From assembly GCA_030696775.1 (NCBI GenBank), contig JAUYRN010000027.1:186001-250000 (forward strand): a stretch of DNA of 64,000 nucleotides. The letters run 5' to 3'. Numbering within the stretch: position 1 is the first letter of the stretch; each line of letters opens with the position of its first letter. The notes below the pieces were generated by a model. That model did no database searches, was not told the origin of the DNA, and saw nothing but the letters and a program-made list of their open reading frames with translations. The position numbers were made by a program, and so were the translations under genes. Shown one piece after another: positions 7,144 through 29,095 of this stretch. This DNA is from Sulfuricurvum sp. (lineage in GTDB: Bacteria; Campylobacterota; Campylobacteria; Campylobacterales; Sulfurimonadaceae).

Positions 7144-7173
7144 ATGAACTTTTTGTGTAAGAAAAAAGCATGA
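7144..7173 (+). CDS. Possible nine-residue leader peptide coupled to the nitrite reductase
   Basis: ATG at 7144 opens a ten-codon frame (MNFLCKKKA) whose TGA at 7171-7173 overlaps the downstream ATG at 7170 by four bases. A GGGG lies six bases upstream. The downstream gene has only a weak ribosome binding site of its own, so coupling is possible. Such short frames also arise by chance. Confidence 0.25.
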   Translation: MNFLCKKKA

Positions 7174-8924
7174 GTATTGTCGAAAAAAAGCTGAATAAAC
7201 GGGAACGCTACAAAGCGAAAATGATTCCGTATGATTATTACCCCCAAATTGCAACTCTTGATTTTAATGCGCTAAGCGAAGCCGATATTTTTTATCTTCA
7301 AGATTTTGGTATTTTTAATAACCCTCTGAATGAAGAAGATTTTACCCTTCGTTTGCGCATCACGGCAGGTCGTATAACCGTTCAACAACTTCACTCCATT
7401 GCGCACATTGCAAACTCTCATTCTCTTGACATCATCCTGACCGCACGTGCAGGAATACAACTGCATGGACTTACCAGCGAGAACGTATTGAGTATTTTTC
7501 ATCAAATTAACGCAACAGGCATCACCACCTGGCAAACATTTGGCGATAATGTTCGAAATATCGTGACGGATGTGTATGATGGGCTGGGAGAAACGTGCGA
7601 GATTGAGGTCTATCCCCTTATCGTGGAAATGGAACGGACTATTCTCAAGATTCCTCGTCAAGTTGGAATGTTACCACGGAGAATTTCAACCGGTATTTCT
7701 GGAAATCGAGCGAATGTTACCTCATTTTTTGCCAATGATCTCTATTTTGGGTTGGCGCAAAAAGATGGAGTTTTCGGATTTAACGTCTATATGGGCGGCA
7801 AAAATACTGAGATTGCCCACTGTGCCAATATATTCTTGCTCACGGATGAAGTCGTAGCTTTTTTTAGTGCTTTTATCGAGGCATTTAACAAACATGGTTT
7901 ACGCAACACACGCTCACAAATACGTCTTTTTTATCTCCTTGAGACGATCGGCATCGAAATGTTTAAAGAATACATTGCACAAGAGTACCAAAAAAAATGG
8001 CAAACTGCAGGGACGCTGATACTGGAAAAAAGAGAATTTTCGAAGAGTGAAAAACTGCAAGACGGGAGCTATGCTTTTTGCTATGAGAGTGATTTTGGAC
8101 ATGTAACACCCGATGAGCTTACACGAATCGCCACTTTTGCCCATATAAATGACGCAGAAGTGCGACTCACTACCCAGCAAAATATTGTCATTTTAGGGCT
8201 TTTTGAAAAAACATCCCCTTTTGAAAATCTCCCCAAAAGCGCCACAGTAATTGTGTGTGCAGGGAGCAGTTATTGCCCATTTTCGTTTTGGGATTTAAAA
8301 AATGAAGCACTTTTATTGCCTCTGGATAAAATTCAAAAGCATCGTATCCAAGTGGGTGTTTCAGGCTGCGCCAAAGGATGTGGAAGACATCAGCACTGCG
8401 ATATTGGGCTGATCGGATTGCGTACGAGCAGTTTTGGCGATGTGGATAAAGCCGCACGCATCTATTTTGGAGCACAACACTCGAATGGGATCAGTGTGGG
8501 AAGAGAGCTTTTTACGATGGTTCCCCTCGAACACATCGGTAATGTTATCGAGATGATTATCGATGAGTATGAAGCCAGTGAACAGGAGAGCTTTGAATAC
8601 TTTTCTACCCACGTCCTCAACCATTATTCGGAGGAGTTTTGTGCGTTATGGTTTTTGGCGAAACTTGATACAGGGTCAAAAATGATGTTGCACAGTTTGG
8701 ATAATACCCATTTTTACAAAATTGCTTTTTGTCGTTTTGACGCAGAAAGAAAGTTGTTGGAAGAGTCTTTTTCCGGCGAATCCTTTTTATCTCTGATTGA
8801 CAATAATTTTGAAAATGCTATACGCTCTTTGAGTAAAAAACTTTGGACGATTGGGCAAGCCGATCAAAACCTTTCTCCGCAAATCAAGAAATTAATGACT
8901 AGCAAAAAATATTGGGAGCTCTAA
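7170..8924 (+). CDS. nirA: Siroheme nitrite/sulfite reductase (ferredoxin-type nitrite reductase-like)
   Basis: 584 residues with the duplicated half-domain plan of siroheme-dependent nitrite/sulfite reductases. The [4Fe-4S]/siroheme ligands are visible as Cys363 and Cys369 (CAGSSYC) and Cys400 and Cys404 (GCAKGCGRHQHC region). The enzyme would reduce nitrite to ammonia by six electrons, probably from ferredoxin, in the cytoplasm. No flavin domain is fused. A Crp/Fnr-type box and -10 precede it, which places this assimilatory-type enzyme in the same regulon as periplasmic nitrate reductase. Sulfite as substrate cannot be excluded, but the nitrate-gene context favours nitrite. Confidence 0.8.
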   Translation: MSIVEKKLNKRERYKAKMIPYDYYPQIATLDFNALSEADIFYLQDFGIFNNPLNEEDFTLRLRITAGRITVQQLHSIAHIANSHSLDIILTARAGIQLHGLTSENVLSIFHQINATGITTWQTFGDNVRNIVTDVYDGLGETCEIEVYPLIVEMERTILKIPRQVGMLPRRISTGISGNRANVTSFFANDLYFGLAQKDGVFGFNVYMGGKNTEIAHCANIFLLTDEVVAFFSAFIEAFNKHGLRNTRSQIRLFYLLETIGIEMFKEYIAQEYQKKWQTAGTLILEKREFSKSEKLQDGSYAFCYESDFGHVTPDELTRIATFAHINDAEVRLTTQQNIVILGLFEKTSPFENLPKSATVIVCAGSSYCPFSFWDLKNEALLLPLDKIQKHRIQVGVSGCAKGCGRHQHCDIGLIGLRTSSFGDVDKAARIYFGAQHSNGISVGRELFTMVPLEHIGNVIEMIIDEYEASEQESFEYFSTHVLNHYSEEFCALWFLAKLDTGSKMMLHSLDNTHFYKIAFCRFDAERKLLEESFSGESFLSLIDNNFENAIRSLSKKLWTIGQADQNLSPQIKKLMTSKKYWEL

Positions 8925-8927
8925 ACT

Positions 8928-8969
8928 TTGATCTATATCAAATACTATCTCTTAGGCATTTGCTATTAT
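8928..8969 (+). promoter_or_regulatory. Crp/Fnr-type promoter of the response regulator gene
   Basis: TTGATCTATATCAA at 8928-8941 and TATTAT at 8964-8969, with the last base of the -10 34.5 from the box centre. The box begins four bases after the nirA stop. Confidence 0.75.
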
Positions 8970-9022: not shown

Positions 9023-9772
9023 GTGGCATCCATTAAAATACTTATCGTTGAAGATGATGATGTTACAGCTCTTAACTTAACTCTATCGTTGGAGGCCTTC
9101 GGATATAAGGTTGTCTCGGTCGCTAATGATAAGCACAGTGCTCAAAAAAAACTAAAAATTTACTATCCTGACATCGTACTCATCGATATAGAGTTAAAAG
9201 GCAAAAAGGAAGGAATAGAAATCGCGCAATTTATTCGCACTAAAATGCCGCTCCCTTTTATCTATCTCACCGCTCATTCTGGAAGCAATACGCTGATAAA
9301 TGCCAAGCAGACAGAGCCTTACGGCTATATAGTCAAACCTTTTGAACCACTGAATCTTCACACAACCATTCAAATGGCATTGTATCGTTTCGAAGAAGAA
9401 CAAAAAAGATTCGTCAATATCGATGAGCTAAAGCACAACAAAGAGGATCTCGAGAAACTACTCTATGTTAAAAAAAGCTCCGATAAACCTATTGTTGAAT
9501 TTGGAAAACATTATCGACATGACATTTCACTGGGAGAGACTTTTTATAAAAATCAAAAAATTTATTTGAGTAAATCAGAGAATGCTTTTATCCGATTACT
9601 GGCTGTTAATTTTGGACGTACCGTCGATTTTGAACTCGCTATGTCGTATATTTGGGAAGATGAATACGTGACTGTCAACAGTGTGCGAACTCTAGTCTGG
9701 CGTTTACGTAAAAAGCTTTCCGAAGATGTCATCAAAAATGCTTCAGGAGTCGGATACTATCTGGAGGGATAA
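9023..9772 (+). CDS. Orphan OmpR-like response regulator
   Basis: 249 residues starting at GTG 9023, four bases after AAAGGAG (9012-9018). The receiver domain has the acidic pocket IVEDDD at 8-13, the phosphoacceptor Asp55 in VLIDIELKG, a conserved Thr/Ser near 83 and Lys in YIVKPF near 105. The C-terminal 80 residues form a winged helix ending in TLVWRLRKKL and a GVGYYLEG wing, an OmpR/PhoB-type DNA-binding domain. No histidine kinase is encoded nearby. It stands between nirA and the HPP-moaA pair and has its own Crp/Fnr-type promoter, so it probably acts in nitrate/nitrite control; its signal and targets are unknown. Confidence 0.85.
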   Translation: MASIKILIVEDDDVTALNLTLSLEAFGYKVVSVANDKHSAQKKLKIYYPDIVLIDIELKGKKEGIEIAQFIRTKMPLPFIYLTAHSGSNTLINAKQTEPYGYIVKPFEPLNLHTTIQMALYRFEEEQKRFVNIDELKHNKEDLEKLLYVKKSSDKPIVEFGKHYRHDISLGETFYKNQKIYLSKSENAFIRLLAVNFGRTVDFELAMSYIWEDEYVTVNSVRTLVWRLRKKLSEDVIKNASGVGYYLEG

Positions 9773-11252: not shown

Positions 11253-11322
11253 ATGGTAGCTTATCTTCAAATGGATGTTCTTGATTTATGTCAATTCGAA
11301 TGATAGAGGTGTGTGCTATCAT
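11253..11322. promoter_or_regulatory. Divergent promoter pair sharing one Crp/Fnr-type box
   Basis: TTGATTTATGTCAA at 11281-11294 lies between moaA (minus) and the Crp/Fnr regulator (plus). On the plus strand TATCAT ends at 11322, 34.5 from the box centre; on the minus strand TACCAT (complement of 11253-11258) lies at the same distance. One dimer could serve both directions and make the regulator autoregulated. Confidence 0.65.
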
Positions 11323-11357
11323 TTAAAATAGATTATTACGTAAGGAATACTCCATTG

Positions 11358-12005
11358 ATGTTGGAACAACTTGATTTTTTTAAAGGATGTGATCCGCAAA
11401 AACTATCCCCATTATCCATTAATACAAAAATAAAAAATTATGAAGCATCAGATATATTAGTCTATGAAGATGATGATATTAATCGTGTTTATTTTCTCCT
11501 CGAGGGAGAAGTGAAGTTTTATAAAGTGGATCGATTTGACAACGAAGTTTTTTTGTATACATTAAAGGATCAAGCATTACTGACCAATATCGGTTCACTT
11601 GATTGTGATCGTATCAGTTGTTTTAGCAATGTTGAGTTTCTCTCCCACAGCCGCGTGATGTCGTGTGATTTAAAAGCTTTTAATGAAGTTGTAAAAAATG
11701 ACAATACGTTACTGATTCGATTAGTGAATCTTCTCGCGAATCAAAAACAAATGATCGATTGTATGGTAACGATGGGAATGGTGCATGATGTCACCGCGAA
11801 AGTTGCTAAAATGCTGCACGGAAATCTTGATCTTTATAACAGTCTGAAAAAACAAGAAATATCCTATCGTCTTAATATTCAACCCGCTACGCTTTCGCGT
11901 GTATTGGCTAAATTTATCCGTAAAGGAATTATCATCGAAGAAGATCATAAAACACTAATTCTCTTACCAGATGAGTTAGCATACTATTTTACGGAGGGGC
12001 TATAA
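11358..12005 (+). CDS. Crp/Fnr-family transcriptional regulator
   Basis: 215 residues from ATG 11358 (AAGGAA ten bases upstream; a TTG at 11355 is also possible). The N-terminal cyclic-nucleotide-binding-like barrel (DINRVYFLLEGEVKFYKVD) is followed by a dimer helix and a Crp-type HTH (ISYRLNIQPATLSRVLAKF). No N-terminal four-cysteine Fe-S motif like that of FNR is present, so it is more like the NssR/DNR or Crp branches, which sense NO or related signals. It is preceded by a TTGA-N6-TCAA box and overlaps the next gene by one base (TAATG). It is the best candidate to bind the eight boxes in this window. Confidence 0.88.
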   Translation: MLEQLDFFKGCDPQKLSPLSINTKIKNYEASDILVYEDDDINRVYFLLEGEVKFYKVDRFDNEVFLYTLKDQALLTNIGSLDCDRISCFSNVEFLSHSRVMSCDLKAFNEVVKNDNTLLIRLVNLLANQKQMIDCMVTMGMVHDVTAKVAKMLHGNLDLYNSLKKQEISYRLNIQPATLSRVLAKFIRKGIIIEEDHKTLILLPDELAYYFTEGL

Positions 12006-12904
12006 TGCAATCCATATCTACTAAAATTCGTTGGATCGTTCTCATTCTCTCAATCAATCTAATCACCATTATTATGGTCGATATTTGGCTCAATTCATCT
12101 CAAAAACTCGATGCCAAAGTGATCAATACCGCCGGAAAGCAGCGAATGCTTTCCCAGCGTACCGTTTTGGAACTTCACCGTTTATTAGTAGATGAAGATG
12201 GAGCATATGAGCGGCTGCAAAGTGCACGAGAAGAATTTGATCGCAATTTCAAACAGCTTAGTGCAACTACTTCAGACTATCAGGCATTTAAAAACGACAA
12301 AATTGAAACAACCATGAAGGAAGTACATTCTCACTGGAATCAAATGGGAGAATTGATCGATCATTATTTGCAAGGGGATCATAACTTGTATGATCTTAAA
12401 ACCATTTATGATAATGGAGATCAAACGCTCAAGCTCATGGACAAAGCGGTCAATCAATACGAAGAATCGATGATGGAACAGCGGATATTAGCACACCGTA
12501 TCCAAATCACCCTTGCTATTATCTCTTTTGGAATTATCCTTTATATGGCACGTACAACGTTACAGATACAGCGTAATTTTGAAACCTTCTTAAATCATAC
12601 ACAAGCAATTAGTGGAGCAAAAAATATCGAATGCAAAGGAAATGAACTTGATATTGCCTGTTCTCATATTGAGCATTTTTTACGTAATGTCGAAGAAGCA
12701 CTTCAAAGTGCGACAGATGCAGTAGAAAAAAGTGAGGCAGCAACGTCCGGACTTTATGGTGGTACACCCGAAGCGAAAAACCTGCTCGAACAAAGTGAAG
12801 ATGTTATGATTCAAGTAGGCGAAGAGCTCCATCAAACTTCCACTCGACTTAAAAAACTCAAAAGCAATCTTGAAAAAACCAAAGCAATGAAATATCCTTT
12901 TTAA
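12005..12904 (+). CDS. Membrane sensor with PilJ/NarX-like type IV pili domain, no kinase
   Basis: 299 residues. A transmembrane helix at 9-28, a periplasmic four-helix segment and a second helix near 164-184 frame the sensor. The helix INTAGKQRMLSQRT near residues 40-53 matches the PilJ N-terminal / NarX P-box type pattern, which binds nitrate or nitrite in NarX. The cytoplasmic tail of about 110 residues looks coiled-coil and lacks a histidine kinase, GGDEF or MCP signalling domain. The ATG overlaps the stop of the Crp/Fnr regulator (TAATG). A partner role for that regulator or for the orphan response regulator is inference. Confidence 0.8.
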   Translation: MQSISTKIRWIVLILSINLITIIMVDIWLNSSQKLDAKVINTAGKQRMLSQRTVLELHRLLVDEDGAYERLQSAREEFDRNFKQLSATTSDYQAFKNDKIETTMKEVHSHWNQMGELIDHYLQGDHNLYDLKTIYDNGDQTLKLMDKAVNQYEESMMEQRILAHRIQITLAIISFGIILYMARTTLQIQRNFETFLNHTQAISGAKNIECKGNELDIACSHIEHFLRNVEEALQSATDAVEKSEAATSGLYGGTPEAKNLLEQSEDVMIQVGEELHQTSTRLKKLKSNLEKTKAMKYPF

Positions 12905-12923: not shown

Positions 12924-12965
12924 TTGACTTAAGTCAAAACCTTTTTTCTTCAATTACTTTATAAT
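12924..12965 (+). promoter_or_regulatory. Crp/Fnr-type promoter of the nap operon
   Basis: TTGACTTAAGTCAA at 12924-12937 is a perfect palindrome. A consensus TATAAT at 12960-12965 ends 34.5 from the box centre. The predicted transcript would have a leader of roughly 85 bases before napA. Confidence 0.85.
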
Positions 12966-13058: not shown

Positions 13059-15848
13059 ATGTCATTGGATAGAAGAGAATTTTTAAAAAGTGCAGCAGCA
13101 GCGTCTGCCGCAACAGCAATAGGAATGGCAGTTCCTGCTTCAGTCGAAGCAGCGGCAGTTCAAGGTCAGGCAGGATGGCGTTGGGATAAAGCGGCATGCC
13201 GTTTTTGCGGAACAGGATGCGGTATCATGATGGCAACCAAAGACGATCGTATCGTCGCAGTCAAAGGTGATCCATTGGCTCCGGTTAATCGTGGTCTTAA
13301 CTGTATCAAAGGATACTTTAACGCCAAAATCATGTACGGTGCGGATCGTCTTACTCAGCCGTTGTTGCGTATGAACGATAAAGGCCAGTTTGATAAGCAG
13401 GGTAAATTCAAACCTGTCAGCTGGAAACGTGCTTTTGATGAGATGGAAATTCACATCAAATCAGCTCTTAAAGAAAAAGGACCTACCGGCATCGCGATGT
13501 TCAGCTCAGGTCAGCAAACGGCGATGGAAGGTCACGCAGCACTCAAGCTAATGAAAGCGGGATTCCGTACCAACAACATCGATCCTAATGCACGTCTTTG
13601 TATGGCATCTGCTGTTACTGGATTCATGAACGTTTTTGGAGCGGATGAACCATCAGGCTGTTATGAGGACATTGAACTGGCTGAAACGATTGTTGCGTTT
13701 GGTTCAAATATGGCGGAAATGCACCCTATCCTCTGGTCACGTGTCAGTGATCGTAAACTTAGTAATCCTGATAAAGTACAAGTTGTTGTTCTATCGACCT
13801 ACAAACATCGTACGATGGACTTAGCGGATGTCGAAATCATCTTCAAGCCTAATACCGATTTGGCGATTTGGAACTACATCGCTCGTGAGATTGTTTACAA
13901 TCACCCTGAAGCTATGGACAAAGAGTTCTTAGATAAAAATATCGTATTTGCAACTGGTCCCGTGGACATCGGATACGGGCTTCGTGAAGATATTCACCAC
14001 CCTAAATATGGGGCGAAAGAGCTCGATACCGCAGCCAAACAAAAATCTAAAGTTCTAACTGCCGATGAGGGAGTCAGTCTTGGATATTTAGGCTACAAAG
14101 AGGGCGATACATTGGAGATGAAAAATACCAATGATGCGAACAAACATTGGAAAATCACCTTTGAAGAGTTCAAAAAAGGTCTTGCTCCCTATACCCTCGA
14201 TTATGTTGCACACGTTTCCAAAGGTGATGCAGATGAGAGCATGGAAAGCTACAAAGCAAAACTTAAAAAAATGGCCGATCTTTATATCGAGAAAAAACGC
14301 AAATGTTTGACATTCTGGACGATGGGCTTTAATCAGCATACACGTGGAACATGGGTTAATGAACAAGCTTACATGGTGCATTTCCTACTGGGTAAACAAG
14401 CCAAACCGGGTAATGGTGCATTCTCGCTCACAGGTCAACCATCCGCGTGTGGAACAGCTCGTGAAGTAGGAACATTCAGTCACCGACTTCCTGCGGACAT
14501 GGTCGTTATGAACCCTGCTCACCGTAAAATGGCAGAAGGTATCTGGGCACTTCCTGATGGAACGATTAATCCAAAAGCAGGATCGCACTTTACTCAGATC
14601 CACCGTGATCTCGAAGATGGCAAGGTGAAATTTGCATGGGTAAGTGTTTGTAATCCGTATCAAGATACCGGTAATGCAGATCACTGGATTAAAGCAGCTC
14701 GAAACATGGACAACTTTATCGTAACGTCCGATGGTTATCCGGGAATTTCAGCAAAAGTATCCGATTTGATTTTACCAAGTGCGATGATGTATGAGAAATG
14801 GGGAGCATACGGTAATGCAGAACGCCGAACACAACACTGGCGTCAGCAAGTCACTCCAATGGGTGATTCGATGTCCGATACGTGGCAGTTTGTAGAGCTT
14901 TCTAAACGCTTTACGATCAAAGAAGTATGGGGAGCACAACCTATCCCAGGACTTGATGGCGGATTACCTGATGTTATGGGTAAAGCCAAAGCAATGGGAT
15001 ACAACGATAACTCAACCTTGTACGATGTCCTTTTTGGCAATGCACGGGCAAAAGCATTTAAATGGCCTGATCCAGTTGGCAAAGGGTATCAAAACTCTGA
15101 AGTTGAAGGCGACAAACGTAATGTTATCGGAAGCGATGGCAAACCGTTCAAAGGATATGGCTTCTTTATCCAAAAATATCTTTGGGAAGAGTATCGTAAA
15201 TTTGGTGACGGGCATGGACATGACTACGCCGATTTCGATACCTACCACCGTGTACGCGGACTAAAATGGCCGGTTGTAGATGGTAAAGAGACGTTCTGGC
15301 GTTACAACGCGAAATACGATCCGTATGCGAAAAAAGCAAACAACGGAGCATTCGCATTCTACGGCCATGCGTTCAAAGACATTCCAACCGGAAATCTTAA
15401 AGGAGTTACGAACAGTGCGAAAGTGAATTTGGATAACAAAGCCAAAATTTTCTTCCGTCCGTATATGGAACCAACCGAAGTACCGGATAAAAACTATGAC
15501 ATTTGGCTTTGTACCGGTCGTGTACTCGAGCACTGGCATAGCGGTACCATGACGATGCGTGTTCCTGAGCTTTATCGTGCGGTTCCAGAGGCATTGTGTT
15601 ATATGCATCCTGCCGATGCTGAAAAACGCGGAGTAAAGCGTGGCGAGATGGTGTGGGTAGAATCACGCCGTGGTAAAGTAAAAGCACACGTCGAAACCCG
15701 TGGTCGTAACCGTCCTCCAAAAGGGTTGGTATTTGTCCCATGGTTTGATGAAAAAGTATTTATCAACAAAGTATGTTTGGATCACACGTGTCCGATTTCT
15801 AAACAAATCGACCACAAAAAATGTGCTGTAAAAATCTATAAAGCGTAA
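13059..15848 (+). CDS. napA: Periplasmic nitrate reductase catalytic subunit NapA
   Basis: 929 residues, the size of epsilonproteobacterial NapA. A twin-arginine signal peptide ([13 protein letters not shown]) opens the protein; ATG 13059 is preceded by AAGGGGG and is preferred to an upstream TTG. The [4Fe-4S] cluster binds through CRFCGTGC and the later Cys in LNCIKGY. The molybdenum ligand Cys is in [10 protein letters not shown]-terminal molybdopterin-binding segments ([14 protein letters not shown]) are intact. It reduces nitrate to nitrite in the periplasm, with NapB and the NapGH quinol dehydrogenase. Its stop shares a base with the napG start (TAATG). Confidence 0.97.
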
Positions 15849-16651
15849 TGACTATGAGTACTAAAACTCCTAATGATCGTCGCCGTTTTCTCCTCTCTAT
15901 TGCGAGAGGAATTGGGTTGAGTGCGATGGGGGCTTTGGTCTGGAGTGCCTATGTGGGTGAAGTAAAAGCAGCGCCTCTGGTTTTGCGTCCTCCGGGAGCG
16001 CTGGATGAAGCGGAGTTTATCAAAAACTGTATCAAGTGCGGTTTGTGTGTGGAAGCGTGTCCGTATGACACTCTGATATTAGCGCGTCCAGGGGACAATC
16101 TCCCCATCGGGACACCGTTCTTTACCCCACGATCTGTGCCTTGTTATATGTGTACGGATATTCCTTGTGTACCGGTGTGCCCTAGCGGTGCATTGAACGA
16201 ACCCTCCGTAAGCAGCTATGTGAAAAGCAAAGCCGTTTTGGACATCAATAAATCGCGTATGGGTTTAGCGGTGGTCGATGAGAGTTCGTGTATCGCCGTG
16301 TGGGGAATCCAGTGTGATGCGTGCTACCGTGCGTGTCCGCTTTTAGGCGAAGCCATTACCATCGAAACGTCCAAAAATGAACGCACAGGGAAGCATGCAT
16401 TTTTAAAACCCGTTGTGCATGCAGATGTGTGTACAGGATGCGGAATGTGTGAGCATGCATGTGTTACTGAAATCGCCGCTATCCATATCTTCCCCAGAGC
16501 ATTAGCCATGGGGAAAGTGGGAGACCACTATATAAAAGGGTGGGATAAAACGGACGAAAAACGGTTAGAAGGAGCTTCAATAGAGGTGACTAAAACCAAA
16601 ATAAGCGAAAAAAGTGCGCTTGATTCGCTCAATGACGAAGGAGGATTATGA
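15848..16651 (+). CDS. napG: NapG, Tat-exported ferredoxin-type quinol dehydrogenase subunit
   Basis: 267 residues. A twin-arginine signal (NDRRRFLLSIARGIG) directs it to the periplasmic face of the membrane. Four cysteine clusters can be seen: CIKCGLCVEACP, CYMCTDIPCVPVCP, CIAVWGIQCDACYRACP and CTGCGMCEHACV, so four [4Fe-4S] centres are expected. With NapH it takes electrons from menaquinol to NapB, replacing NapC, which is absent here. An ATG at 15854 is an alternative start. The end overlaps napH by ATGA. Confidence 0.95.
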   Translation: MTMSTKTPNDRRRFLLSIARGIGLSAMGALVWSAYVGEVKAAPLVLRPPGALDEAEFIKNCIKCGLCVEACPYDTLILARPGDNLPIGTPFFTPRSVPCYMCTDIPCVPVCPSGALNEPSVSSYVKSKAVLDINKSRMGLAVVDESSCIAVWGIQCDACYRACPLLGEAITIETSKNERTGKHAFLKPVVHADVCTGCGMCEHACVTEIAAIHIFPRALAMGKVGDHYIKGWDKTDEKRLEGASIEVTKTKISEKSALDSLNDEGGL

Positions 16652-17466
16652 TGAAAAATTATCGCTATTTAATCCTCCGTCGTTTGACGCAAATCACACT
16701 CTTGGTTCTTTATGTTGGAGCCAATGCGTGGGGATGGAAAATGCTGCAAGGTAATCTCAGCACTTCCTCTATATTAGGAGCTATTCCCCTGAGTGATCCC
16801 TATGCGGTCATTCAAATAGCCGTTACAGGTGCAAGTTTAGGGATGGATATACTGCTTGGTGCTTTAATCGTGACACTTTTCTATGGTGTTATCGGTGGTC
16901 GTGCCTTTTGCAGTTGGGTGTGTCCTATCAATATTATTACCGATACGGCGGCATGGCTGCGTCGAGCTTTGAAATTTTCTGAAGTGCAGAAACGATTTTA
17001 TATGAGCCGATCATTACGCTATTGGATTTTAGGTTTGAGTTTAATCCTTTCTGCTCTTATGGGAGTAGCAGCATTTGAACTTATCAGCCCTATTTCAATG
17101 GCTCACCGTGGACTTATCTTCGGTATGGGGATGGGCGGCGGTGCGCTGATCGTAATTTTTTTGTTTGATTTACTGGTACATGAAAATGGATGGTGCGGGT
17201 ATGTGTGTCCACTGGGCGCGACGTATTCGCTTATCGGGAAATTTTCCCTTATCCGTGTTTTTCATGATGCTGAAAAATGTACCGATTGTCGCAGTTGCAT
17301 CACAGTGTGCCCTGAAAAAGAGGTCCTTCATATGATCAATCGCAGCAGTGAAAGTGTACTTATGGGTGAGTGCACAAATTGTGGCAGATGCGTAGATGTC
17401 TGTCAAGAAGACGCGCTCGGATTTTCGATCCGAAGTTTCACAAAACAACCAAAGGATGAAGAATGA
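16648..17466 (+). CDS. napH: NapH, membrane quinol dehydrogenase subunit
   Basis: 272 residues with four transmembrane helices. Two conserved membrane-edge motifs FCSWVCPINI and WCGYVCPLGA are present, and the cytoplasmic C-terminus has two ferredoxin clusters (CTDCRSCITVCPEK and CTNCGRCVDVCQED). NapH oxidises menaquinol and passes electrons to NapG. The start is ATGATG at 16648/16651 behind GAAGGAGG; the end overlaps napB by four bases. Confidence 0.95.
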   Translation: MMKNYRYLILRRLTQITLLVLYVGANAWGWKMLQGNLSTSSILGAIPLSDPYAVIQIAVTGASLGMDILLGALIVTLFYGVIGGRAFCSWVCPINIITDTAAWLRRALKFSEVQKRFYMSRSLRYWILGLSLILSALMGVAAFELISPISMAHRGLIFGMGMGGGALIVIFLFDLLVHENGWCGYVCPLGATYSLIGKFSLIRVFHDAEKCTDCRSCITVCPEKEVLHMINRSSESVLMGECTNCGRCVDVCQEDALGFSIRSFTKQPKDEE

Positions 17467-18071
17467 AAGCAAGAAAAATGATGAGCAGCTTCATTGCTGC
17501 TTCACTGATTATTAGCGGTCTTTACGCTGGAAATACCTCAATAGATGAAACACAGTTGGGGATGCGCAGTGCTGATTTATACACAGAAGACACGGCTAAA
17601 CCAGATGGGACTAACTATCACACTGAAGCTCCCGGAACGTCAAAGAAAATTCCGCGTGCGTATACCAATGCACCGCCGATGATTCCTCATGAAATTGACA
17701 GTCTAGGCGAGATTGATAAAAACAACAATGCGTGTCTGGGATGTCACATGCCTGAAGTTGCTCCCAGTGTTGGGGCAACTTCGATACCAAAATCGCATTT
17801 CACGAGCTTTAGACCGGCGGTAGAATCCGATGAAGATGATAACTTCAAATCTGAAAGCAATGATGTTATTATCAAAAAAGATTTGCATGGTCAACTCTGG
17901 CAAGGACGTTACAACTGTACCCAATGCCATGCACCGCAAACTCAAGGGAAACTAAGAGTAGAGAGCAGTTTCAAACCGGACTATACCGATAAAAAAGGTC
18001 AAAAGCATAAAAAATCATCGTATCTCATGGATGAACTTGACATCGGTGTCAAAGTCGGAAACGGACTATAG
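17463..18071 (+). CDS. napB: NapB, dihaem cytochrome c subunit of nitrate reductase
   Basis: 202 residues. A Sec signal peptide covers about the first 23 residues. Two haem-binding motifs, CLGCH and CTQCH, fit NapB, which carries electrons to NapA in the periplasm. Histidines in the stretch before CLGCH and around KSHF can supply distal ligands. It overlaps napH by ATGA and is followed by napF after two bases. Confidence 0.95.
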   Translation: MKARKMMSSFIAASLIISGLYAGNTSIDETQLGMRSADLYTEDTAKPDGTNYHTEAPGTSKKIPRAYTNAPPMIPHEIDSLGEIDKNNNACLGCHMPEVAPSVGATSIPKSHFTSFRPAVESDEDDNFKSESNDVIIKKDLHGQLWQGRYNCTQCHAPQTQGKLRVESSFKPDYTDKKGQKHKKSSYLMDELDIGVKVGNGL

Positions 18072-18073
18072 TC

Positions 18074-18550
18074 ATGGAAACGGCGAAAAGAGGAGGATTT
18101 TTTGGTGCTCTTTCGGCACTCTTTCATGACGTAAAATCTTCCACTCGCCCTCCATACGCGCTTTTGAATGAAACATTTGAAGCGTGTAAAACATGTGAAG
18201 CGATGTGTGCAACTGCGTGTGAAGAAAACATCATTCATCTTGATGATCAGAAAATCCCTTTTTTGGATTTTAAAACAACAGGATGCAGTGATTGTCACAA
18301 ATGCATGGAAGTGTGTACCCCGAATGTATTAAATGATCCAAATCGTTTCATTCAAGGCCATGCGAAGATTACCATGATGAATTGCATGTCCCATCATGGG
18401 ACGATTTGTTTTTCATGCAAGGAGCCGTGCTTGGAGAATGCAATTGTTTTCAAAGGTATGTTGCATCCCATTATCCTCCCTGAAAAATGTACGGGATGTG
18501 GATATTGTATCGGGGTGTGCCCCAGTGGTGCGATTGAGATGGTAGCATGA
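18074..18550 (+). CDS. napF: NapF, cytoplasmic ferredoxin-type protein
   Basis: 158 residues, no signal peptide. Cysteine clusters CKTCEAMCATAC, CSDCHKCMEVC, a looser CMSHHGTICFSCKEPC and CTGCGYCIGVCPSG give about four iron-sulfur centres. NapF is thought to help mature or reduce NapA before Tat export. It overlaps napL by ATGA. Confidence 0.92.
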   Translation: METAKRGGFFGALSALFHDVKSSTRPPYALLNETFEACKTCEAMCATACEENIIHLDDQKIPFLDFKTTGCSDCHKCMEVCTPNVLNDPNRFIQGHAKITMMNCMSHHGTICFSCKEPCLENAIVFKGMLHPIILPEKCTGCGYCIGVCPSGAIEMVA

Positions 18551-19485
18551 AAACATTATTTTTTTTATTTTTACTTCTTATAACTGGCGTTGCAGCTGTT
18601 ATTAATCCCTCTACAACACTAAAAACCGATGGGTTAATCAGCGACATGGTAGTTCGAGAAGGCAAGATTTATGTCTCAACAGATACAGGAATTGTGAACG
18701 TTTTTGATAGTGTATCAAAACGTAAACTCAGCTCCATAACTGCGCCAAACGTTTCCACTGTAGGCAAAGTTTTTACCCCAAAAATCTATTCGGTCGATCA
18801 TTTAGCGAGCTCTACGGTTATCGTGACCGAGAGTGGTGAATCTTTTCGAAATGTTTATCTATGGCGCGACAATAAGATGCTAAAAGTTATTGATAATTCG
18901 AGAGGATTATTAATTAAAAAAGTTCGTTTTCTTGATGTAAGTCATTTACTCTTCGGACTCTCTGGTGATACAATCGTTCTTATGGATTTGAACAAGCAAA
19001 CCCTCGTCTACCAAGTACAAGCCGGTGGAGGAGTGTTTGGGGATATGGCACTTAGCCCTAAGAAATCACTCTTAGCCGTAGGCGATGAAAGTGGTGAAAT
19101 TGTACAGATCGAGACACTGAGCGGTCGAAAAATAAAAACGCTCAGCGGACTCAACCTGGATGCAATCAATGGGCTTTCCTATCAACAAAACACCATCCTC
19201 AGCGGTGGACACGATCGTCGTGTCGGGGTTTATCGTCCAAAGGGGAGTTATTTTATCGAAACCGATTTTTTCGTTTATGCCGTAGGACTTAGCCCTTCGG
19301 CATCCAAAGGGGTTTATACCGATGGTGATGAAAATGAGTTACAAGTTTTTGATTTAGCCACTCAAAGAAAAATCGTCCGATTAAAAGGGGGAGAAACCCT
19401 TTACGATTCGCTGATCTTTTTGGATGAGCATACATTGATCGGTTCGGGTGAAGAGAATAAAATTTATTATTGGAGAATACCGTGA
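18547..19485 (+). CDS. napL: NapL, secreted beta-propeller-like nap accessory protein
   Basis: 312 residues with an N-terminal hydrophobic signal (FLFLLLITGVAAV). The rest is a series of beta-rich WD40/YVTN-like blades with phrases such as VSTDTGIVNVFD and LSGGHDRRVGVYR. NapL is found in epsilonproteobacterial nap operons between napF and napD; its role is not well understood. The gene end overlaps the GTG start of napD. Confidence 0.9.
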   Translation: MKTLFFLFLLLITGVAAVINPSTTLKTDGLISDMVVREGKIYVSTDTGIVNVFDSVSKRKLSSITAPNVSTVGKVFTPKIYSVDHLASSTVIVTESGESFRNVYLWRDNKMLKVIDNSRGLLIKKVRFLDVSHLLFGLSGDTIVLMDLNKQTLVYQVQAGGGVFGDMALSPKKSLLAVGDESGEIVQIETLSGRKIKTLSGLNLDAINGLSYQQNTILSGGHDRRVGVYRPKGSYFIETDFFVYAVGLSPSASKGVYTDGDENELQVFDLATQRKIVRLKGGETLYDSLIFLDEHTLIGSGEENKIYYWRIP

Positions 19486-19832
19486 ATATTTCAAGCATAG
19501 TGGTGCAAACCAACCCAAATTTTACCGAAGAAGTAGTCGAAATTTTTAAATCTTCTGATTTTTGTGATTATCATTTTCACGATGAAAAAGGGCGCATTAT
19601 TGTTACTATTGAAGGTGAAGGCGTCGAAGAAGAGATTCAAAAACTTACAAGAATTCAGTTTATGGATCACATTATTTCTGCAGATATGTCATTTGCTTAC
19701 AGTGAAGATGAGCTCAACGCTGAACGGGATAAACTTGAAGCAGTAGGTGATGCTTTACCCGAGTGGCTGAACGATGAAAACGCTACAAAGCGCGATATTA
19801 AATACAACGGCGATCTCAAAGATCGATTTTAA
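19482..19832 (+). CDS. napD: NapD, NapA maturation chaperone
   Basis: 116 residues starting at GTG 19482, six bases after GGAG at 19472-19475, overlapping the napL stop as GTGA. An upstream in-frame TTG at 19470 is less likely since it precedes the ribosome binding site. The ISSIVVQTNP opening and small ferredoxin-like fold match NapD, which binds the Tat signal of NapA in the cytoplasm. Last gene of the operon. Confidence 0.9.
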   Translation: MNISSIVVQTNPNFTEEVVEIFKSSDFCDYHFHDEKGRIIVTIEGEGVEEEIQKLTRIQFMDHIISADMSFAYSEDELNAERDKLEAVGDALPEWLNDENATKRDIKYNGDLKDRF

Positions 19833-21362: not shown

Positions 21363-21404
21363 TTGACCCAAGTCAAAGACATTAATCCCAAAATCCATTA
21401 CAAT
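21363..21404 (+). promoter_or_regulatory. Crp/Fnr-type promoter of nrdD
   Basis: TTGACCCAAGTCAA at 21363-21376 and TACAAT at 21399-21404, 34.5 from the box centre. Anaerobic control of class III ribonucleotide reductase makes biological sense. Confidence 0.82.
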
Positions 21405-24511: not shown

Positions 24512-24553
24512 TTGACCTGCATCAAAGCAATTTATTTCATAATCTTTTATAAT
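24512..24553 (+). promoter_or_regulatory. Crp/Fnr-type promoter of the cytochrome c gene
   Basis: TTGACCTGCATCAA at 24512-24525 and a consensus TATAAT at 24548-24553, 34.5 from the box centre. Confidence 0.82.
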
Positions 24554-29053: not shown

Positions 29054-29095
29054 TTGATCGAAGTCAATCCTTTTAGACTTTCGTAGCGCTATACT
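29054..29095 (+). promoter_or_regulatory. Crp/Fnr-type promoter of nnrS
   Basis: TTGATCGAAGTCAA at 29054-29067 and TATACT at 29090-29095, 34.5 from the box centre. Confidence 0.8.

Follow-up and report, generated by a model that had tools for sequence, protein, structure and literature searches.

A PilJ-type membrane protein without a kinase domain as candidate nitrate receptor of an NssA-type Crp/Fnr regulator in Sulfuricurvum sp.

According to reviews, Campylobacterota lack the classical nitrate regulators, and the means by which nitrate, NO and N2O are sensed by the Nss regulators are unknown (PMC6682613, PMC8139620). NssA of Wolinella succinogenes mediates the nitrate response as an activator under nitrate, with nap as its target (PMC6682613), and further study has been called for on how the nitrate is sensed (PMC8139620). 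The NssA literature, in its available parts, treats NssA alone and names no membrane partner (PMC6682613, PMC8139620, PMC11539149), whereas the NssA-type regulator described here, encoded in a 64,000-nucleotide stretch of Sulfuricurvum sp. DNA (the window), has a candidate partner. A literature search returned no paper naming a PilJ protein as the partner of a Crp/Fnr protein, Kern and Simon 2016 being represented in it by the available parts of its citing papers.

The input side of this partner resembles described nitrate receptors. McpN of Pseudomonas aeruginosa, whose C-terminal part is a chemoreceptor signalling domain with output to a chemotaxis pathway, binds nitrate at its dimer axis through the arginine of the N-box, and this motif has been proposed as the mark of nitrate-binding PilJ domains (PMC6381276). 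The window sensor shares with McpN the PilJ domain, the N-box, the LBD fold and presumably the nitrate site at the dimer axis, but lacks such a signalling domain. NarQ and NarX, whose nitrate motif G-x-x-R is likewise present in the window sensor (PMC8199190), align with their sensor, transmembrane (TM) and HAMP parts to residues 1-232 of its model; they differ in that the window sensor has neither a DHp nor a catalytic domain and is paired with a Crp/Fnr protein, not with a NarL-type response regulator. Because the output domains of NarX and McpN are absent, the pair is neither of them, though the input is alike.

The regulator is like DNR of Pseudomonas aeruginosa and FNR, with TTGA-N6-TCAA boxes in common. 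DNR and FNR sense NO or O2 by a cofactor of their own and are not known to have a receptor partner, such as is proposed for the window regulator. Sequestration of regulators at the membrane is known for Mlc, which is held by PtsG, and for sigma/anti-sigma pairs. The likeness lies in the logic, with a transcription factor held by a membrane protein, and in the overlapping gene pair, whereas the families differ and the contact is here only proposed.

Anatomy of the sensor and identity of its regulator

The sensor gene (12005..12904, + strand, as are all features of the two proteins) encodes a predicted kinase-less, PilJ-type transmembrane nitrate receptor of 299 aa, the putative partner of the NssA-type regulator. 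The two TM helices proposed by the first-pass annotation coincide with Kyte-Doolittle hydropathy peaks at residues 11-29 (TM helix 1, 12035..12091, within the AF2 helix 4-61) and about 161-186 (TM helix 2, about residues 163-184, 12491..12556, within the AF2 helix 128-203). The PilJ domain (residues 28-125, 12086..12379) was assigned by Pfam (PF13675, E=2.5e-19, 69.9 bits against a gathering score of 26.6) and by the match of the model to the McpN LBD. PF13675 is matched by 26/26 aligned sensor relatives and MCPsignal (PF00015) by 0/26. The periplasmic helix that had been likened to a nitrate-binding one carries an N-box, INTAGKQRMLSQ (residues 40-51, 12122..12157, including R47), which fits the strict pattern [IVL]-[ND]-x-A-G-x-Q-R-M-L-[ST]-Q exactly (PMC6381276). 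A HAMP-like stretch (about residues 187-232, 12563..12700) was placed by the alignment to the NarQ sensor-TM-HAMP parts, and the tail profile also matches HAMP-bearing MCPs. It is followed in the AF2 model by two helices only (214-251 and 256-296), which form an antiparallel C-terminal hairpin (about residues 233-296, 12701..12892), the proposed output surface, with the near-invariant signature E265-D266-x-x-I269-x-x-x-E273 (12797..12823).

The AF2 model, for which the window sequence was combined with 44 loci from the tail query, has a mean pLDDT of 82 and a pTM of 0.60, with most of the tail only at 55-77. Its best structural match is the McpN LBD (Z 17.3, 122 residues, rmsd 2.1), and NarQ fragments (5iji/5jef) align through HAMP with Z 13-14 and rmsd 4.4-5.0. 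Foldseek also ranks NarQ and McpN at the top, but with E-values above 0.01. Since helical bundles easily score middling Z values, the fold match backs the sequence match and cannot stand alone. Judged on the model alone, the layout is like that of NarX/NarQ, with a four-helix periplasmic sensor bearing the nitrate motif, two TM helices and HAMP.

The cytoplasmic tail had been annotated as having no kinase, and Pfam and NCBIfam scans agree: no kinase, MCP or other output domain scores above cut-off in the window protein or its 26 aligned relatives. Only about 113 residues follow TM2, and the DHp and catalytic ATPase domains are missing. Sub-cut-off matches to sensor kinases occur among the relatives (NarQ in 6; DegS, PmrB, VicK and BaeS in one each), and the NarQ match of the window protein runs through the sensor part, residues 3-200. 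A hidden kinase or other named output domain was rejected on these scans of the protein and its relatives.

The regulator ORF (11313..12005) probably starts at ATG 11358 (M16), as indicated by the N-terminus of the family alignment, an upstream AAGGA and the promoter spacing; the listed GTG start (11313) sits too near the upstream box. The two ORFs share one base, as annotated, with the sensor ORF opening on the final A of the TAA that ends the regulator ORF, and GGAGGGG lies just ahead of the sensor ATG within the regulator gene. Among solved structures, DNR (3dkw, E 4.5e-18) is closest to the regulator. In FNR proper, four cysteines hold a [4Fe-4S] cluster; these are absent from the regulator family, in which Cys is common in only two columns (103 and 150, in 117 and 109 of 152 regulators). 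In cAMP-CRP, an Arg-Ser in the nucleotide pocket binds the phosphate, but the family profile has Ile-Ser at the aligned positions, so that the cAMP arginine is absent as well. Conserved in the family are a loop, K68-Y70-K71-D73-N77-E78-F80-L81, and D159/K163-A165. The recognition-helix glutamate at residue 192 (window 11886-11888) is Ala in the window's genus; this replacement is seen in five members of that genus and also in six of the seven nosZ-linked regulators described below, with the TTGA boxes persisting.

Genome G245, which we take to be Wolinella succinogenes, contains exactly three regulators of this profile (E<=1e-6). They share 45.2/28.6/25.5 % identity with the first main regulator of genome G077 and 33.2/48.8/28.2 % with the second, and the Nitrosophilus labii paper reports 44.8/29.2/26.1 and 33.3/50.0/28.2 % for NssA/NssB/NssC (PMC11539149). 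The G245 regulator that matches NssA is the one with a PilJ gene behind it, upstream of napA. The window regulator shares 40.8% identity with this sensor-linked protein, against 24.6 and 23.8% with the other two, and by these values is closest to NssA among NssA, NssB and NssC, given the presumed identity of G245. Two further Crp/Fnr paralogues lie outside the window, making three in the genome: G000:C35:178231-178866 is NssB-like (51.7% identity to the second G245 regulator), and G000:C18:224482-225024 contains an in-frame TGA within the matched stretch.

Conservation of the pair and its link with nap

The co-occurrence of the two genes, suggested as a check by the first-pass annotation, was followed at three scales, and the genes are almost never apart. 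With the whole protein as query, 61/149 genomes of the order match, and a Crp/Fnr gene stands immediately upstream on the same strand in 29 of the 30 loci listed. A query with the tail only, which carries no regulator information, kept 80/83 loci in the scan of named genomes; apart from a single bin labelled 'Proteobacteria bacterium', their titles all name Campylobacterota groups. In 74/80 of them the regulator is the next gene upstream, at -56 to +18 bases from the sensor; of the other six, L068, L075, L105 and L106 are cut by a contig end and L043 and L109 have a split sensor ORF. In these last two (L043:6060-7432 and L109:6350-7339) the sensor is in two ORFs with an intact regulator next to the first part, either through sequencing errors or through natural loss. 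Across the phylum (397 Campylobacterota genomes, regulator cut-off E<=1e-50, at least 150 tail matches), the tail protein was found downstream of 136/143 regulator matches, in 121 genomes, among the tail matches listed. The pairing is no local accident. Neither genes usually apart nor a hidden kinase found in the tail by profile search, the outcomes named beforehand as speaking against the proposal, was encountered.

The seven regulator matches with no listed tail comprise G444 (contig end), G047 (a weaker sensor) and five others. One of these five, G137, we read as NssB-like, and the real exceptions, NssA-type regulators with no adjoining sensor, are G034, G320, G334 and G061. Their regulators have 4, 5, 7 and 8 conserved positions altered, against a median of 1 (90th centile 6) in paired regulators, which is suggestive only as a guide to a possible interface. 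Conversely, 14 listed tail matches have no regulator, including G271 at a contig start. No Crp gene is nearby in the loci of the tail matches L150 and L155-L159, and L150, L157 and L158 encode chemoreceptors, in which MCPsignal and HAMP domains are present. In L017, L039, L047, L058 and L062 the genes form triplets, with a second, different Crp/Fnr gene after the sensor.

For the comparison of the two proteins, 185 adjoining pairs, chosen by adjacency, were reduced to 152 non-redundant ones, in 79 of which the genes overlap. The regulator and tail trees agree with a cophenetic r of 0.91 (64 pairs thinned from the 152), and few changes between one- and two-PilJ architecture occur across the regulator tree. 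Orthologues share their species history, so duplication is a stronger point for co-inheritance than tree agreement. Sulfurimonas-like genomes contain a second pair, whose regulators form one clade and whose tails form one clade, each with support 100 and apart from the nap-linked pairs. In six of the seven second-pair loci (L141, L142, L144, L147, L148 and L154), the pair stands right before nosZ, which is directly 3'. Mean-field coupling was computed over the 152 pairs, equivalent to an effective number of 105 at 80% identity and 37 at 62%. The highest cross-protein scores were level with the highest within-protein scores; they fall largely in TM2 and gap columns and are read as phylogenetic noise.

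The tail is constant while the input changes, the pattern expected of a tail that always addresses a Crp/Fnr partner and of a signal that varies. E265, D266, I269 and E273 are near-invariant in the single-PilJ, tandem-PilJ and nosZ-linked classes. On the input side, R47 is kept in 79/80 single-PilJ and 59/65 tandem-PilJ members, and the N-box fits the strict pattern in 93/152 sensors and a relaxed one in 139/152, with 13/152 failing even the latter. In the nosZ-linked class, G44 is replaced by Asn and R47 by Lys in 7/7, and no PilJ match is left in the three sensors scanned. As NarQ R50K was crystallised as the apo form (title of 5jeq), the nosZ-linked sensors probably do not read nitrate by analogy, and the pair could possibly sense another nitrogen oxide.

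The nap operon (13059..19832, + strand) begins with the napA ATG at 13059, 154 nt past the sensor stop, in line with the annotated position of the sensor directly before nap. The genes after napA are presumably napG, napH, napB and napF-like, napL-like and napD-like ones, as judged from the Campylobacterota gene order, with a weak NapD match by NCBIfam. In the window's family, 36 genomes contain regulator and NapA, 0 the regulator alone, 2 NapA alone and 14 neither (p 7e-11, kinship uncorrected). Across the phylum, NapA is present in 123/128 genomes with the regulator against 207/269 without it (p 3e-7, kinship uncorrected); the co-occurrence is moderate here because NapA is common (330/397), and tight only in the window's family. 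Directly after the pair stands napA in 63 cases, nosZ in 7 and neither in 62, among 132 pairs with room to see. Nap of Sulfurospirillum multivorans is not nitrate-regulated according to a review (PMC6682613), and the denitrification genes of Nitrosophilus labii are expressed constitutively (PMC11539149). A small protein is encoded between napD and the regulator gene in some genomes (L003:317-865, L005:2919-3458, L009:2729-3265 and L069:4765-5301); the one scanned, that of L003, is a single PAS domain, and for Nitrosophilus labii, too, a figure legend places a PAS gene close to nap (PMC11539149).

Candidate mechanism and alternatives

Given the observed anatomy, pairing, co-inheritance, nap link and boxes, the protein is a strong candidate for the nitrate sensor that has been missing for the NssA-type regulator. 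We consider it likely, from the sequence comparisons, that it acts as the transmembrane nitrate receptor of this regulator by direct contact, in one direction or the other. We infer direct contact from the constant tail, the fixed partner, the overlapping genes and the fact that no other neighbour is equally conserved. Periplasmic nitrate would be bound on the axis of the PilJ dimer via R47, by analogy with McpN and NarQ, and the resulting change would pass through TM2 and the HAMP-like stretch to the short helical hairpin. The hairpin, which would occupy the place of a kinase or chemoreceptor tip, may contact the regulator directly and with no phosphotransfer. In the absence of nitrate it would hold NssA at the membrane or inactive; in its presence NssA would be freed and would induce nap, the operon that encodes NssA itself, and further genes that bear a TTGA-N6-TCAA box.

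This hold-and-release version, taken alone, is put forward tentatively, and we place it somewhat ahead of activation. The nitrate-bound tail might instead act on NssA as an allosteric activator, either at the membrane or in passing and with no release, a variant of direct contact that we regard as conceivable but rather unlikely. Chemoreceptor-like hairpins usually control partners that are bound to them, and the conserved loop K68-L81 with D159/K163-A165 could form the contact surface. The role of NssA as an activator under nitrate (PMC6682613) would suit this variant. However, overlapping genes and near-equal expression suit a holder equally, and the sequence data fit either direction alike.

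The first-pass annotation had offered, as one possibility, that nitrate status is presented to the orphan response regulator at 9023 (9023..9772, + strand, OmpR-type by Pfam), which has no kinase beside it. The sensor could in this way signal to 9023 or to a distant kinase and be merely co-transcribed with the regulator, but the tail and the Crp/Fnr gene are inherited together, and in the 80 named loci 0 relatives of 9023 score above 100 bits and one above 60. In addition, 9023 has its own TTGA-N6-TCAA box, TTGATCTATATCAA (8928..8941, + strand), with TATTAT at the fixed spacing, and so looks like a target. This explanation is very improbable; 9023 was rejected as output of the sensor on co-occurrence, and the response regulator is probably a target. 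Scarcely more probable is that the sensor only anchors or positions NssA, its PilJ domain being a structural leftover. The N-box is indeed lost in the members that fail the relaxed pattern, but an anchor would need neither the N-box retained by most sensors nor the R47 kept in nearly all single-domain ones. It is also unlikely, if a little less so, that NssA detects its signal unaided and that the role of the membrane protein is limited to tuning it, e.g. through feedback or by reporting a second ligand. Sensor-less NssA-type genes would agree with self-sensing; against it stand the rarity of such absences (five of 143 regulator matches, one of them NssB-like) and a regulator that has neither the cAMP arginine nor the four FNR cysteines.

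For the preferred reading, in which the sensor is the nitrate receptor of NssA, the conserved receptor beside NssA is the gene to delete for the Nss sensing question, and a true contact would mean that a NarX/McpN-type receptor can reach a Crp/Fnr factor with no kinase in between. More speculatively, Campylobacterota might own a signalling class of miniature chemoreceptor-like sensors, in which a HAMP-hairpin tail would act directly on a dedicated Crp/Fnr protein with no kinase and the input would be exchangeable: nitrate for the nap pair, and another nitrogen oxide, possibly N2O, for the co-duplicated and altered nosZ pair. The latter pair offers a starting point for finding an N2O-linked sensor in consumers of this greenhouse gas.

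TTGA-N6-TCAA boxes and putative target genes

The window contains 12 TTGA-N6-TCAA boxes against 3.3 expected, a number reached by 0/100 shuffles. In 7/12 (7079, 8928, 11281, 12924, 21363, 24512 and 29054), a -10-like hexamer with at least 5/6 matches stands 22 bases 3' of the box on the + strand, and in two more the -10 is one base farther (19842) or on the other strand (5747). The box before the regulator-sensor operon, TTGATTTATGTCAA (11281..11294, + strand), is followed at the fixed spacing by TATCAT (11317..11322, + strand), and that before napA, TTGACTTAAGTCAA (12924..12937, + strand), by TATAAT (12960..12965, + strand). The arrangement recurs in other genomes, where 20/51 boxes behind sensors have such a -10, against 5/350 control offsets. 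An exact box precedes napA in 42/63 loci (0.34 on average and 3 at most in shuffles), the regulator in 22/150 (150 of the 152 pairs having enough sequence; 1.24 on average and 5 at most in shuffles) and nosZ in 6/7 nosZ-class loci. With three Crp/Fnr paralogues in the genome, the boxes may belong to another paralogue, a concern that the Ala at recognition-helix residue 192 in the window's genus makes greater.

The gene behind the box at 21363 is presumably nrdD-like, and that behind the box at 29054 presumably NnrS-like. The box at 24512 comes after a radical-SAM (nrdG-like) gene; both it and the box at 29054 have a perfect or near -10, and the latter, before the NnrS-like gene, gives a good reading in both directions. 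The gene at 7170-8924, with a box (7079) and a -10 upstream, encodes a nitrite/sulfite reductase-like protein with NIR_SIR domains that scores below the NCBIfam NirA cut-offs.
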